Shown: one piece after another, positions 28,875 to 64,000 of the stretch
How positions within the stretch are numbered: position 1 is the stretch's first letter
Layout: every line of letters begins with the position of its first letter
Source: a bacterium
GTDB taxonomy: Bacteria > Bacillota > Clostridia > Lachnospirales > Lachnospiraceae
DNA: 64,000 bases
NCBI GenBank assembly: GCA_023664305.1
Contig: JAMPFT010000002.1
Span: 124,001 to 188,000, forward strand
Reading direction: 5' to 3'
Position numbers and translations under genes: made by a program
The notes under the pieces: model-generated
What the model was told of the DNA's origin: nothing
The model's database searches: none
Seen by the model: the letters and a program-made list of their open reading frames with translations, nothing else

Positions 28875-28925
28875 GACCGAATGTGTTGAGGAAGGAACTT
28901 GAGTCAACATATCCGGTCTTTTTTT
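28875..28925 (+). terminator. Terminator in the leader of the LytTR regulator gene
   Basis: Arms GACCGAATGTGTTGA / TCAACATATCCGGTC (one mismatch) followed by TTTTTTT. No plus-strand gene lies between the sugar operon terminator and this hairpin, so it sits in a 5' leader and is a probable attenuator. Confidence 0.7.
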
Positions 28926-28933
28926 GGGAAAGC

Positions 28934-29112
28934 TTGGGAGTAAACTTCCAATGTCAGACCTGTCGGTCTGTCAACATAGGGCAAATATTGATTGATGTGC
29001 GCCGGAGCGCGCAAAGGGGTATAAGCTTGGAAGCAAACTTCCAAATATTGAATTGGCGCCAAAGAGGGGTGTTTACGCATCCTCTTATGAAGCGGTCAGG
29101 GGGTGTATAAGC
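28934..29112 (+). promoter_or_regulatory. Tandem translated leader upstream of the LytTR regulator
   Basis: Two tandem units. Each begins with an inverted repeat in which the TTG start is embedded (TTGGGAGTAAACTTCCAA at 28934, TTGGAAGCAAACTTCCAA at 29027). Unit 2 has AAAGGGG 7 nt before its TTG and would give a 27-residue peptide containing EANFQILN and PLMKRSGG. It stops at TAA 2 nt before the regulator ATG, so termination and reinitiation can be coupled. Unit 1 is in frame with unit 2. The same peptide motif and hairpin occur before the lipoprotein gene at 61488, so selection on this leader is likely. Confidence 0.7.
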
Positions 29113-29829
29113 ATGAAAATTGCAGTTTGCGACGGTGAGAAGGAAGCGTGTGCGGAATTGAGACGTCTGATCCGCAGGGAAAGATCGGATGCGGAGGTGG
29201 TATGCTTTTGCTCCGGCAGGCAGCTTTTAACGTCAAGGCAACGCTTTCCGATTGTGTTTATGGACGTCCGTATGGAGGGCGAGAGCGGGATCGAGACGGC
29301 GAAGGCGCTGCGGAGGAAGGATGAGACGGCAGTGCTGATCTTTGTGACCGCGCTGAAGGAATATGTGTTTGAAGCCTTTGACGTGTCGGCCTTTCACTAT
29401 CTGCTGAAGCCGGTGTCGGAGGACAAGTTCCGGAAGGTATTTGCAAAGGCATGGGAAGAGGCGGTCAGGCGGGAACAAAAGAGCGGAGAACAGATCTTTT
29501 TTCGGACGAAAAGCAGAAATATTACCGTTCCAAAAGGAGATATTCTGTATGTGGAAAGCCGGGGGCGGAAGGTGGATATCCATACCCCGCGGGAATGCGT
29601 GACGGTCTACGCCACCATGAACAGTCTGGCGGAGCAGCTGGGAAGCGGCTTTTACAGGTGTCACAGGGGATATCTTGTCAATCTGGCCCGCGTGGCGGAG
29701 TATGAGACAAACAAAATCCTGCTGGAGAACGGAGAGACCGTTTTGATGGCAAGGGAAAAGTATACGGAATTTGACAGGACTTATATAGAGTACCTGAAGA
29801 GCGAAGGCAAGGTGCGGATTATACTGTAG
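29113..29829 (+). CDS. LytTR-family response regulator (orphan)
   Basis: 238 residues from the ATG at 29113. Receiver domain 1-120 with phosphoacceptor Asp51 (FMDVRMEGESG), Thr in FVTALKEY, and a Lys in HYLLKPVSE. LytTR DNA-binding domain about 135-235 (ITVPKGDILYVESRGRK, YRCHRGYLVNL). Such regulators usually pair with a 6TM GHKL kinase, but none is encoded nearby. The gene sits behind an attenuator and a tandem translated leader, so its expression seems tightly controlled at RNA level. A 39-bp tandem repeat follows directly after the stop codon. Confidence 0.92.
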   Translation: MKIAVCDGEKEACAELRRLIRRERSDAEVVCFCSGRQLLTSRQRFPIVFMDVRMEGESGIETAKALRRKDETAVLIFVTALKEYVFEAFDVSAFHYLLKPVSEDKFRKVFAKAWEEAVRREQKSGEQIFFRTKSRNITVPKGDILYVESRGRKVDIHTPRECVTVYATMNSLAEQLGSGFYRCHRGYLVNLARVAEYETNKILLENGETVLMAREKYTEFDRTYIEYLKSEGKVRIIL

Positions 29830-29833
29830 AAGA

Positions 29834-29988
29834 TGACAGGGAAAAGGGGCGGCTGAGGCGTGGCGCAGAGAGTGACAGGAAAAGGGGCGGCTGAGGCGTG
29901 GCGCAGAGAGTGACAGGGAAAAGGAGCGGTTGAGGAGTGGCGCAGAGAGTGACAGGGAAAAGGGGCGGCTGAGGCGTGCCGTAGAGAG
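29834..29988 (+). repeat. 39-bp tandem repeat after the LytTR gene
   Basis: Four units at 39, 38 and 39 bp spacing (starts 29834, 29873, 29911, 29950), each containing TGACAGGGAAAAGGGGCGG and GAGGCGTGGCGCAGAGAG. No coding role is apparent. Confidence 0.9.
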
Positions 29989-30073
29989 TGACAGAAGGAA
30001 CGGGCTGCAAAAGCATGCCGTAAGAGCAGACGGGGGCAGGCGGGAGTTTTCCCGGCCTGCCCCGCCAAAATCC

Positions 30074-30710: not shown

Positions 30711-30835
30711 GGCCGGGCTTAGGTTTTCTGCGGACACGTTTGCACTCGGGTCGGCACATAGCGGACGCTAAGCTCGAAAGGACCTCGCTAAGCGCCGATG
30801 TGCCTTTACGGTCCGCCGAAAACCTAAGCCCGGCC
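30711..30835. repeat. Palindromic dispersed element, copy 3
   Basis: 125 bp. Arms GGCCGGGCTTAGGTTTTC / GAAAACCTAAGCCCGGCC are fully complementary and differ in sequence from those of copies 1 and 5. The core matches copy 1 closely (ACACGTTTGCACTCGGG, CGCTAAGC twice, GGCACAT/ATGTGCC). Confidence 0.88.
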
Positions 30836-30986
30836 AAAGTGACACGTTTGTACACAAAGACGGCACATAGCGGACGCTAAGCTCGAAAGGACCTCGCCAA
30901 GCGCCGATATGCCTTTACGGTCCGCCGAAAACCTAAGTCCGGCCAAGGTGACACGTTTGTACACAAAGTCGGCACATAGCGGACGT
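30836..30986. repeat. Tandem partial duplicates of the palindromic element
   Basis: A 109-bp unit (30836-30944) repeats the core and right arm of copy 3, with ACGTTTGTACACAAAG in place of ACGTTTGCACTCGGG. A third truncated unit (30945-30986) repeats only the first 42 bp. This is local tandem expansion of the element. Confidence 0.85.
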
Positions 30987-34685: not shown

Positions 34686-34715
34686 AAAAATCCCTGCTCT
34701 AAAACAGGGATTTTT
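34686..34715 (-). terminator. Strong intrinsic terminator before the PBECR4 gene
   Basis: 11-bp perfect stem (AAAAATCCCTG / CAGGGATTTTT) with an 8-nt loop, T-rich on the minus strand. It ends 20 bp before the nuclease ATG. Confidence 0.85.
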
Positions 34716-34859
34716 CGTGCATTTTCTTTCGGTTTTATCAGCCTACGCCGGTTTGAGGTTTCATTGCACAACCCCTCCCGAAAGCTCCGTAAGGCAATGC
34801 ATACCGGCACACGCCCTTACTTCAACGCTTTGACAGACACACGTCGTTGCCTGCCTTAT
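34686..34859 (-). ncRNA. Candidate structured small RNA upstream of the PBECR4 gene
   Basis: A consensus promoter (34866-34894) and a strong terminator define a roughly 170-nt transcript with no open frame. Visible pairings on the minus strand include GCCGGT/ACCGGC enclosing CATTGC/GCAATG, CAACG/CGTTG near the 5' end, and TAAGGCA/TGCCTTA. The last competes with CATTGC/GCAATG, so two alternative folds exist. It does not show the core of SRP RNA. It could be an independent sRNA, an RNA antitoxin or an attenuator leader. Confidence 0.6.
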
Positions 34860-55669: not shown

Positions 55670-55684
55670 AGCAAAAGAGAAAAT

Positions 55685-55820
55685 TCTTCGGGGTTGGGTG
55701 CGATTCCCTACTGGCGGTAAAGTCCGCGACCCGGAGCGGAGGAAGGGCGTATGCGCCCGGCTCCGCGAAGGCTGACTCGGTGAAAGTCCGGGACCAACAG
55801 TAAAGTCTGGATGAGAGAAG
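55685..55820 (+). promoter_or_regulatory. FMN riboswitch (RFN element)
   Basis: Conserved RFN segments in order: TTCGGGG, GGGTGCGATTCCC, CTGGCGGTAAAGTCCGCGA, an expanded variable stem, CTCGGTGAAAGTCCGGGACC, AACAGTAAAGTCTGGATGAG. FMN binding favours the terminator at 55902-55934 and shuts off riboflavin uptake. Confidence 0.97.
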
Positions 55821-55901
55821 AAAAGGCGGCTCGTATGTTGTTTTTCCGCGCGTGCGGAGAGCAGGGCATACGAAAAGTCCGCATGAGTATGCAGACCAGA
55901 C

Positions 55902-61135: not shown

Positions 61136-61427
61136 GTTAAATTATGGTTGTACTGTTTGAGCTTAGCGTTCCCGGATTTCCAATATTAAAGCACAGAAAA
61201 ATATTGAATTTATAGCATTTTCATAAAATCCCAAAGTAGTACAGGACACGGTTTTTATGGATTATCGTGCGATATTGCCGGAGCGCCGGATTTTGAGACA
61301 AAGCAGATACAAATCAAATACAAGTCGGATACAAAATCCTGTTATGACATAAATGCAGCCAGATTCGTGCAGAAAAAGGCGCGACAAGGTTTTCGTGCTG
61401 CAATCAGTTTGCAAGGAGGAGAAAAGT

Positions 61428-61487
61428 TTGGAAGTAAACTTCCAAATATTAAATGAATGCCCGCTAAAGCGGGCGGGAGGTATAAGC
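61428..61487 (+). promoter_or_regulatory. Translated leader upstream of the lipoprotein gene
   Basis: A TTG at 61428 has a perfect AAGGAGG 8 nt upstream and lies in the inverted repeat TTTGGAAGTAAACTTCCAAA. It reads EVNFQILNECPLKRAGGIS in frame with the lipoprotein ATG at 61488. A second hairpin (GCCCGCTAAAGCGGGC) stands before the SD GGGAGG of the main ATG. The same motif precedes the LytTR regulator at 29.1 kb. Confidence 0.7.
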
Positions 61488-62810
61488 ATGTATAAAAAAA
61501 CAGGATTATGGAAAAAGGTACCGCTCCTGCTATTGCTGTTTTTGTTGACGGCCTGTTCACAGCGGGAAAGCAGGGAAGGATCGGATGAAGCCTTCTCAGA
61601 CACGACAGAGCTTGGCTTCGGTACGCAGGAAGCAGAAAACAGCCCGGATACCCCGGAAGCGGGAAGCCGCTCTGAGGCTCCGGGGGAGGGAAACAATACC
61701 GACAGGCAGGATGCCGCGCGGCAGGCGGCGGATGCTTCCAACCGGGACATTCTTGCCGCCTGCGCGGGGACAACGGTGACGCGGACGATAGAGACCTCCG
61801 CCGGAGGGGTCCTATCCGTTGAGGCGCAGGTGGATGTGGAAGGGGTCAGCCGTGTGAGCTGCTATCGGTATCTGCCGATGCAGTTTACGGAGGATGGTCG
61901 GAAAGCGTTATTGAAGAAATGGTTTCCGGCGGAGAACTGGGATGTAAACGAAGCGGCAGTGTATAACGCAGAGGAAGAAAGGTGGGAATTTACCACTCCC
62001 CGCGGGAGAAGCTGTGTCTATCAGGTCATCGGCTCCGAAAATCCGGAGGAGCAGATCCTGAACGTGGAAGTGATATCGGAACAGCCGGATTATACGGGGG
62101 AAAGCATTCTGTTCCCCGTGCGGCTTACCTCTGAATTTACTGAAATCGTAGAAGAAATTTTGCTGACAGAGGATGCGACGGGCCGCTCGCCGGATGAAAT
62201 ACGGCAAATAGGGTTGATCATCCTTCAAACTTGTTACCATGCCGCCAGCGGCGGAACAAATGATGATATGGACGAGGATGTGTATTCGTGCAATTATATG
62301 CATGTTTGCGAGGAAAGCGGAGGCAATAAGTATGCAAAGACCGTATTTAAACAAACGGTAGACGGGATGCCCGTAACGGTCTGGCATAATTTTACAACGG
62401 TAACGACTAAAGACGATTTCTGGCCGGTAAAAGCATGGGGCAGCCTGTTTTCGACGGAAGAAATCGGATTGGATCAGCCGATCCTGACGCCGGAGGAAGC
62501 CGCCGCAGCCGTGCAGGAACAGATCGACTCCGTTCAGACCCAGGCAACGCAGACCCAGGCAACGCAGACCCAGGCAACGCAGACCCAGGCAACGCAAATA
62601 CAGGAAACGCAGATGCGGATCACAAAAATCACTCTGGAATATCTGTCTGTCATCTCTTCGGAAGGGACGCCGGAGATCGTGCCGGTCTGGAGATTCTGGC
62701 CCGGAGGCGACGAGGAGGAGAGAAGCAGGATGTGTGAACAGATTTTAGCGGTAAATGCGGTCAGCGGCGAACTGATTTGGGAAAACCGGGGAGGCTTCAT
62801 GTCCTTTTGA
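61488..62810 (+). CDS. Lipoprotein with Thr/Gln repeat, hypothetical
   Basis: 440 residues from the ATG at 61488 (GGGAGG upstream). Lipoprotein signal peptide KKVPLLLLLFLLTAC with Cys23, then a Glu/Asp/Ser-rich linker and an extracytoplasmic domain (about 95-330) with VLSVEAQVDVEGVSRVSCYR, RLTSEFTEIVEEILLTEDAT and TVWHNFTTVTTKDDFW. Residues about 350-375 are a TQATQ repeat encoded by a 15-bp DNA repeat. Not recognised. It may also be translated from the in-frame leader TTG at 61428, which would add 20 residues ahead of the signal. Another lipoprotein gene follows. Confidence 0.75.
   Translation: MYKKTGLWKKVPLLLLLFLLTACSQRESREGSDEAFSDTTELGFGTQEAENSPDTPEAGSRSEAPGEGNNTDRQDAARQAADASNRDILAACAGTTVTRTIETSAGGVLSVEAQVDVEGVSRVSCYRYLPMQFTEDGRKALLKKWFPAENWDVNEAAVYNAEEERWEFTTPRGRSCVYQVIGSENPEEQILNVEVISEQPDYTGESILFPVRLTSEFTEIVEEILLTEDATGRSPDEIRQIGLIILQTCYHAASGGTNDDMDEDVYSCNYMHVCEESGGNKYAKTVFKQTVDGMPVTVWHNFTTVTTKDDFWPVKAWGSLFSTEEIGLDQPILTPEEAAAAVQEQIDSVQTQATQTQATQTQATQTQATQIQETQMRITKITLEYLSVISSEGTPEIVPVWRFWPGGDEEERSRMCEQILAVNAVSGELIWENRGGFMSF
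62535..62609 (+). repeat. 15-bp in-frame repeat (TQATQ)
   Basis: Four perfect units of CAGACCCAGGCAACG (62535, 62550, 62565, 62580) and a degenerate fifth inside the lipoprotein gene. Copy number changes would keep the frame. Confidence 0.9.
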
Positions 62811-62949
62811 GAGACCGGGCGCGGCGTTTTGCGAATGACGCGGGGCTCACATACCATAGCGTCCGAAGGACGCATTGTGGTCTGCAGCGCTGCAAGACCG
62901 GCGGTTCGTTGCTTGCAGTGAGGTGGTTGACGGGTACGCGTGCCACTAT

Positions 62950-62988
62950 TGAAAATTATGACCGCTGATGCGGGCAGAGGGTATAACG
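62950..62988 (+). promoter_or_regulatory. Truncated leader element before the second lipoprotein
   Basis: ATTGAAAATTATGACCGCTG, then GATGCGGGCAGAGGGTATAA immediately before the ATG, aligns with ATTAAATGAATGCCCGCTAA and GGGAGGTATAAGCATG of the 61.4-kb leader. The 5' hairpin is missing. Confidence 0.5.
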
Positions 62989-64000
62989 ATGCGAAAGAGA
63001 AGATATCAAATCATCTTGTTTTTATGGATTGGACTTTTTTTGACGGCCGGATGCGGGAAAGCGGACGGTGCGAATACAGACGGCGGGCAGCAGGGTGTGC
63101 AGAGCGGCTTCGATCATACCAATGCGGGACAGGAAGCGGCGGAAAACGGCGGGAATCGCAATGCCGTTTCCTGGCAGGCAAGGTATTATCAGATGGCGGA
63201 TCGGTATGACTTTGTGCTGTCGGCAGACCGGTTATACGGTTGCGTGATTCGGGATCGTCAGGTTGTAATCGATGTCTATAATGTTAGGGACATTAATGAC
63301 GGGAAGGATGTCAGTGACGGAAAGGATGTCAACGCAGAAAAAGATCACAATGATAACGGGGCTATCAATGATCAGCAAGAGCTCTATGTAGAACAGACCC
63401 TGACGGTTCCAGGCGTCTCCTCTGTCCTGGGAATGGCAGCGGATCAGGAGGGCAATGCCTATTTTATGGGACGAAAAGAAGACCGCAAAGAGGAAAGCGC
63501 CGGCCTTTGGAGGATCGATGCGGAGGGGCAGCTTTCGGATTATGCGGAGCTAAAATTGGAGGACACAGAGGCGGCCGAGGATTTCTCCCTGAAGGGGATC
63601 TGTACAGACTCGGACGGAACCCTTTTTATCTGGTGCAAAATGTTAGTCGAAGAGGAAGAAAGCGGGGCGTGGCACTGGGAAGACCGCGTCTATGTGAAGG
63701 ACGCACAGTGGAACACGCTTTTTTGCGAAAAAATTGCGGATATGGGTGGAACGGAGGTATTGAGCTTTCAGCTCGGGACAGACGGCAGTCCTTTTTTCAT
63801 CGTAAGGGATCTCGACGGAGGATACTTACAGGAAATCGATGTGGCGCAGAAAGGGCTCAAAGACGCCGTGAGGCTGGAAAAGGCGGGGGAGGTTTTTGAC
63901 GCCGGGTACGGAAACGGCATGGAACAGACTGCCCCTTCAGAGGACGGCTTTCTGTATTGCCGGGATAACGGGCTTTTCCTGTTCCGCATAAACGAGCAGA
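62989..64000 (+). CDS. Lipoprotein, 3'-partial
   Basis: The frame runs open to the window end (337 codons seen). Signal peptide RKRRYQIILFLWIGLFLTAG with lipobox LTAGC (Cys22). After a Gly/Asn-rich linker the domain looks like a beta-propeller or beta-rich sensor: YDFVLSADRLYGCVIRDRQ, GMAADQEGNAYFMGRKED, GICTDSDGTLFIWCKM, LGTDGSPFFIVRDLDGG. The repeated D.dG.lyf.. motif every 45-60 residues suggests propeller blades. A low-complexity DVSDGKDVNAEKD stretch lies near residue 115. GAGGG precedes the ATG. Confidence 0.75.
   Translation, partial: MRKRRYQIILFLWIGLFLTAGCGKADGANTDGGQQGVQSGFDHTNAGQEAAENGGNRNAVSWQARYYQMADRYDFVLSADRLYGCVIRDRQVVIDVYNVRDINDGKDVSDGKDVNAEKDHNDNGAINDQQELYVEQTLTVPGVSSVLGMAADQEGNAYFMGRKEDRKEESAGLWRIDAEGQLSDYAELKLEDTEAAEDFSLKGICTDSDGTLFIWCKMLVEEEESGAWHWEDRVYVKDAQWNTLFCEKIADMGGTEVLSFQLGTDGSPFFIVRDLDGGYLQEIDVAQKGLKDAVRLEKAGEVFDAGYGNGMEQTAPSEDGFLYCRDNGLFLFRINEQ

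Follow-up and report, generated by a model that had tools for sequence, protein, structure and literature searches.

A dispersed palindromic unit with its own Shine-Dalgarno sequence, probably inserted between the Shine-Dalgarno sequence and start codon of Lachnospiraceae genes

The window, by which we mean the whole 64,000-nt stretch of Lachnospiraceae DNA analysed here, contains several copies of a unit of about 60 nt that is dispersed through the genome and includes its own Shine-Dalgarno (SD) sequence, as is seen when the stretch is read against the rest of the genome. This unit is probably a dispersed palindromic insertion module, equipped with an SD and placed in the spacer between the SD of a gene and its start codon; it looks like a mobile or expanding palindromic module of this spacer. 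It has an ordered anatomy with a covarying stem, is found in arrays and at the start codons of many unrelated genes in some gut Lachnospiraceae, and is present or absent at exact spots in related genomes. The first-pass annotation had described it as a translated leader with a conserved peptide and had listed a mobile regulatory module among its options; a mobile module is probably the right one of these, the regulatory role being putative, and copies elsewhere in the genome and in relatives bear out that the leader itself is the repeated unit.

Anatomy of the unit and its copies in the window

The unit starts with hairpin 1, TTTGGAAG-TAAA-CTTCCAAA, the TTG of which is a possible start codon, followed by the linker ATTGAATTGA, by a covarying hairpin 2 (in one example TGTCCGC-TAAA-GCGGACA) and by AGGGGGTATAAG; the start codon of the gene lies one base further 3′, or the next unit follows directly. 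The unit measures 60 nt in the window genome and 61-75 nt in relatives, and its hairpin 1 begins at TTG or ATG. Arrays are well illustrated by contig C14, where three hairpin-2 blocks follow one another with a 60-nt period, two hairpins 1 lie between them, and each SD-TATAAG runs directly into the TTG of the next unit. By eye, the unit ends TTTGGAAG and GGTATAAG are not the terminal inverted repeats of a MITE, and a short palindromic unit in many lineage-specific copies is what is found in REP-like elements.

The window copies described here lie on the forward strand. The most complete view is given by the 60-nt unit at 61427-61486, recognized by sequence, folding and covariance model and absent from the relative G074. 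It is preceded by the native SD and spacer AAGGAGGAGAAAAG of a first lipoprotein gene (61413-61426), the same SD being found directly before the ATG in G074, and it consists of hairpin 1 with its TTG at 61428, hairpin 2 at 61458-61475 and the SD GGGAGG at 61475-61480, then TATAAG. The AAG on either side of 61427-61486 would fit a 3-bp target-site duplication as well as a portion of the unit. The reading frame confirms that the leader from 61428 continues in frame into the ATG at 61488 of the lipoprotein-like gene (61488-62810), which is without Pfam match. What had been called a truncated third copy at 62950 is indeed a copy, its anatomy being that of a unit with hairpin 2 and SD only (62947-62987, by covariance model), placed before a second lipoprotein-like gene (ATG at 62989) and present in G074 too.

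The leaders seen earlier at 28934 and 29027 are real sites that have to be redrawn as an array of two units before a LytTR response regulator gene (29113-29829, ATG at 29113; Pfam PF04397 and PF00072). The native SD and AAG of this gene (GGGAAAG, 28926-28932; G074 has TTTTTTTGGGA directly before the gene) now stand 5′ of the leader TTG. Unit A (28933-29025), the hairpins, SD and TATAAG of which were read from the sequence and which was also found with the covariance model, comprises hairpin 1 (28934-28951, TTG at 28934), an extra hairpin CAGACC-TGTC-GGTCTG (28955-28970), hairpin 2 (28996-29013) and SD plus TATAAG (29014-29025). Unit B (29026-29111), found by sequence reading and the 18-mer search described below, comprises hairpin 1 (29027-29044, TTG at 29027), a long hairpin 2 (29055-29098) and the SD AGGGGG (29098-29103), then TATAAG. 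TTG codons inside hairpins are thus present at 28934, 29027 and 61428, as had been reported, the first being a TTGGGAG variant. A 58-codon leader frame (28934-29110) spans both units, and the 27-codon frame from 29027 ends at the same stop; this stop ends at 29110, that is, 2 nt before the LytTR ATG, as stated earlier.

Other features surround this gene. At 28875-28925 a terminator-like stem GACCGAATGTGTTGA ... TCAACATATCCGGTC with a T run adjoins the native LytTR SD, and G074 has at the same place a different stem with outer letters and T run alike; this stem is possibly an attenuator. Right after the LytTR gene lies a 39-nt tandem repeat of 4.2 copies (29834-29994), and the lacI-lytTR spacer of G074 (L178, contig C72) holds long, nearly identical tandem repeats that the window lacks. 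A 109-nt repeat occurs in 2.1 tandem copies at 30752-30985, and parts of it match about 30 places in genome G012 and others in G074 and more relatives; it is a second dispersed repeat family.

Dispersal and placement at start codons

The exact 18-mer of hairpin 1, TTGGAAGNAAACTTCCAA, occurs seven times in the 3.58-Mb genome (its reversed control not at all) and is found in 2 of 60 other genomes. Within the window, a loose 14-mer sought with up to three mismatches gave 29 places against 21.3 expected, which is not above chance. Blastn with the tandem unit recovered 39 places at E ≤ 10. A covariance model of hairpin 2 plus SD, built from 14 copies, matched the own genome at least 52 times at E ≤ 10 and at least 26 times at E ≤ 0.01, with 150 of 2759 candidates scored. 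Three window copies scored E values of 3.1e-12, 2.9e-9 and 2.7e-8, two of them, or their close kin, having belonged to the training set of the model. When 61 genomes of the genus were scanned under stricter filters, 32 gave matches at E ≤ 0.01 and 29 gave none, with 0-36 copies each: 26 in the own genome (G000), 36 in G012, 34 in G074 and 15 in G001. Across the family at least 7 of 397 genomes, the own included, have a match at E ≤ 0.001 when 16 candidates are scored per genome. The further copies in the genome and in other Lachnospiraceae that had been anticipated are thus found. Carriers include metagenome-assembled genomes (MAGs) deposited as Acetatifactor and Roseburia, and also the isolates Parablautia muri D42-62 and P. 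intestinalis D8-82; because the genomes are drafts, mostly MAGs, arrays and copy numbers are uncertain. Similarity among units is higher inside one genome (0.778) than across genomes (0.724), and none of 1000 label shuffles gave as high a value, which is as expected if the spread were lineage-specific, though tandem copies share descent.

Not every match in the 22 stretches from named carriers is a unit. L235, L238, L245, L251 and L254 read as the coding ends of putative OmpR-type regulators; the junction GGGGTATAAGTTTGRAA also matches such a G-Y-K-F coding end, and this is a source of false matches. L236 likewise looks like chance and L237 has only the 3′ end of a unit, while L240 and L247 repeat G074, and L246 and L253 repeat G012. 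Viral contigs gave no exact match to an 18-letter unit junction, and plasmids and phages gave no blastn match to a 160-nt array at E ≤ 0.01, which weakens the idea of phage or plasmid cargo. A known RNA family was rejected as the identity of the unit, since Rfam 15 leaves it unmatched both in the window at gathering scores and at eight unit loci at E ≤ 1. The Rfam matches in the window are an FMN riboswitch (55680-55826, forward strand) and a drum RNA (34714-34830, reverse strand).

Placement was followed for 92 copies, namely 26 of the own genome (E ≤ 0.01), 21 of 34 in G074, 23 of 36 in G012, 12 of 15 in G001, 4 of 7 in G073 and 6 of 10 in G020. Fifty-six of them adjoin, at -1 to +3 nt, the start of a reading frame that has at least 100 codons or is still open where the stretch ends; for three of these (L111, L145 and L158) the start is the TTG of the next unit opening into a longer frame. 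Fifteen copies adjoin the next unit and 21 adjoin neither. Controls with displaced positions (112 shifts, each above 20 nt and no more than 300 nt) gave a mean of 5.2 and a maximum of 19 against the 56 observed, and the copies that adjoin starts are in sense orientation throughout. Among ten proteins encoded behind units, Pfam matched seven (a LytTR regulator, adenylate kinase, FAD synthetase/riboflavin kinase, a transporter permease, GH113, enoyl-CoA hydratase and pseudouridine synthase) and left three unmatched, including both lipoprotein-like ones; the genes are unrelated, as had been claimed, and no common function is seen.

The 5′ junctions were collected with a script that looks for hairpins with a start codon at their foot, followed by the linker, and because the script demanded a start codon, the constancy of TTG/ATG at the foot of hairpin 1 proves nothing. 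It returned 100 hairpins with AAG directly 5′ in 65; roughly ten of the remaining 35 look real (AAA, AAT, AGG or TAT 5′) and the others look like chance. An SD-like tetramer lies within 11 nt 5′ of the AAG in 15 of 29 solo units versus 3 of 29 in a control stretch, leaving 14 of 29 without one in the 11 nt tested. Note also that the ribF leader of the own genome (L057, contig C11, ~724390-724640) strings together hairpin modules of different kinds, among them a long hairpin AGATTTTCTAAGCCAGT...ACTGGCTAAGAAAATCT that starts at GTG, with the same start in G074 (L108).

The stems, like the SD, are retained. For hairpin 2, in 120 matches (97 chosen sources) with an alignment fitted to the structure, 96% of cells pair, both sides have changed in 99 cells versus 35.7 in shuffles, and covariation reaches 0.341 versus 0.161, slid controls being far lower; two of the five measures (pairs with double change, and further pair types) are not above shuffles. 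Hairpin-1 loops vary from 3 to 7 nt with the lineage, and most of its stems stay complementary, e.g., TTTG...CAAA versus TATG...CATA. RNA folding gave a z-score of -3.3 at 61405-61505 and values between -1.3 and -1.7 in the three other stretches.

Presence and absence between related genomes

At the lipoprotein locus both genomes read GTTTGCAAGGAGGAGAAA, after which G074 continues with AAGCATGTATAAAAAA and the window genome has the unit in between; the difference is 59 nt, with 144/150 bases identical upstream and 264/300 in the coding part. By this comparison, the unit at 61427-61486 sits exactly between native SD and native ATG. The difference may be a gain here or a loss there, because an exact deletion between SD-AAG repeats in G074 would give the same picture. 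The mirror case is found in G074, where L113 reads AATTGTTCAGGAGGAAA, unit, ATG and its counterpart in the own genome (L228) reads AATTGTTCAGGAGGAAACGACATG, 61 nt apart; here 277/300 coding bases agree, and 5′ of the 17 nt that both share, only five of 25 nt agree. The two-unit array before the LytTR gene is missing in G074, which has TTTTTTTGGGAGAAGACCATG where the window genome has TTTTTTTGGGAAAG, the array and CATG (176 nt difference, coding identity 104/150). Presence or absence at orthologous sites, a mark of small mobile palindromic elements, is thus seen, gain and loss both fitting the cleanest site.

When 20 unit-bearing genes of the own genome were queried, 11 had a match in G074 and 9 had none; 15 orthologs were followed, i.e., these 11 together with L072 (L195 in G074) and three window genes. 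The same unit is kept in one of the 15, before the gene at 62989, where the unit at 62947 is common to both genomes. The G074 orthologs of L052 and L072 carry different arrays in that position, and those of L035 and L073 retain, by eye, only the last bases of a unit; in the other orthologs followed the model finds none at E ≤ 1, their leaders consisting of a plain SD or of some other hairpin. Conversely, 6 of 18 G074 genes queried were matched in the window genome, and the six own genes have no unit according to the model, L231 having a hairpin-2-like stretch by eye. The weaker pairs L061/L225 (75% identity) and L030/L224 (69%) may not be strict orthologs, in L196/L230 the spacer is replaced and not cleanly interrupted, and L077/L218, at first sight a clean empty site, is ambiguous.

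One pair bears on how units come and go: the arrays of L035 and L203 differ by 127 nt between flanks that are 142/150 and 146/150 identical. Such a change would suit a process that needs no dedicated enzyme, in which units spread and are lost because short SD-AAG direct repeats recombine ectopically or allow the template to be switched; SD-AAG-like repeats do flank the units, and no enzyme was found in the carriers searched. We consider this explanation possible, if rather unlikely, as a fresh target offers only about 10 nt of likeness and so many unrelated genes per genome would be hard to reach in this way.

Possible mechanism and meaning of the unit

In the reading that we prefer, an insertion module of the SD-start spacer, the unit would move actively, follow a target rule and affect translation. 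It would insert between the SD and start codon of a gene, usually after AAG; the old SD would then drive a short leader frame from the TTG of the unit, and the SD of the unit would drive the gene. One ribosome site would so become a two-cistron arrangement, the old SD serving the new TTG and the new SD serving the old ATG, in which the leader either stops before the gene, with coupled translation or re-initiation, or extends it N-terminally in frame. The rebuilt SD would permit units before adk or ribF without silencing either gene, and tandem stacking would arise because the 3′ end of the unit (SD-TATAAG) resembles the target (SD-AAG). Going further, and tentatively, the unit could represent a class of mobile modules that target the translation start, with an SD-AAG-like site and natural two-cistron host genes. 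Under this proposal the mover would be a process perhaps guided by single-stranded DNA or mRNA, and insertion would be tolerated because the module rebuilds the initiation site.

No convincing transposase was found for the unit in the carrier genomes examined. Two hairpins near the unit ends, tandem stacking behind its own 3′ end and the short fixed 5′ flank AAG in 65 units are what would be expected of a non-autonomous REP-like element driven by an IS200/IS605 transposase or a RAYT, inserting as a single strand 3′ of AAG. We regard such a driver as improbable and weakened by the survey of Y1 transposases (PF01797): none was found in G000, G074, G012 and G001, nor in 9 of 11 additional carriers, and draft assemblies may lack some insertion sequences; Y1 is present in G020 (10 units), in the Parablautia genomes G480 and G481 and in G002, which has no unit, and the flanks examined there show no unit-like ends. 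Equally doubtful is a cis-regulatory RNA, a site for a protein or ligand kept by selection at regulated genes and dispersed only secondarily. The covarying stems adjoining the SD and the sense orientation of all start-adjoining copies would agree with it; the lack of Rfam matches (window and eight loci) and of a shared function among the genes behind, and the rare retention in a close relative (1 of 15 orthologs), speak against it.

Sixty-five hairpin-1 copies show what the unit encodes. Their frames begin LEVNFQILN in the window genome and LKINFQTID, LKEGRFQTID, LKVPFKLL, MKVPFILL or LKKYISNY elsewhere, the leader stops differ in position, and the unit periods vary (60, 61, 63, 64, 65 and 75 nt) without maintaining the frame. 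Because species differ in the loops of hairpin 1, in unit length and in the peptide, the peptide is not the conserved thing, and the conserved leader peptide would be what the DNA of the unit happens to spell. The earlier proposal of a regulatory leader on which ribosome stalling or starvation controls a coupled gene is unsupported and very improbable, despite a good SD before the TTG at 29027 and 61428 and the stop 2 nt before the LytTR ATG, since peptide, frame length and stop vary by copy and species while stems and SD stay, the genes behind are unrelated, and at 61428 the leader is fused to its gene.

Several known repeats resemble the unit in part. According to PMC10969869, Rickettsia palindromic elements are likewise short palindromic repeats at unrelated genes, some of them joined in frame to the gene product; they measure ~150 bp and lie within reading frames, whereas the unit has ~60 nt, sits in the SD-start spacer and carries its own SD. 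In-frame N-terminal extension is possible at 61428 and at L111 and L113 of G074, and most other leaders stop first. REP/BIME sequences mobilised by RAYTs are likewise small, palindromic, lineage-specific, multicopy and paired or in tandem, and are described in PMC3733652 as 20-40 bp long with a GTAG/CGTC tag and mostly downstream of genes. The unit differs in that no GTAG/CGTC tag was noted, in its start-codon position and in that a Y1 partner was not found in most carriers. The TAACTGA repeats of Beggiatoaceae, according to PMC4679880, end a few nt from start codons of unrelated genes and are patchily distributed with tandem copies, like the unit, but they are heptamers with little SD character and without a hairpin unit, in contrast to a 60-nt, two-hairpin unit with a strong SD. 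Bicistronic expression designs work alike (a short first cistron, a second SD, then the gene), except that they are engineered, whereas the unit is natural, dispersed and hairpin-bearing, with a predicted two-cistron role. The pneumococcal BOX, RUP and SPRITE repeats are likewise small interspersed repeats in a Firmicute, and we know of no SD-start targeting by them. A literature search, with most subscription journals outside it, returned no report of an SD-bearing unit between SD and start codon, nor do we know of a described element with a dedicated mover of such target preference.

If true, these proposals would connect mobile DNA with the initiation of translation. By spreading through the SD-AUG spacer, a repeat could change how ribosomes are recruited to many genes simultaneously, the affected genes including the apparently essential adk and ribF, and units could create N-terminal extensions and mislead the annotation of start sites. 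The cultured carriers P. muri D42-62 and P. intestinalis D8-82 make the idea testable.
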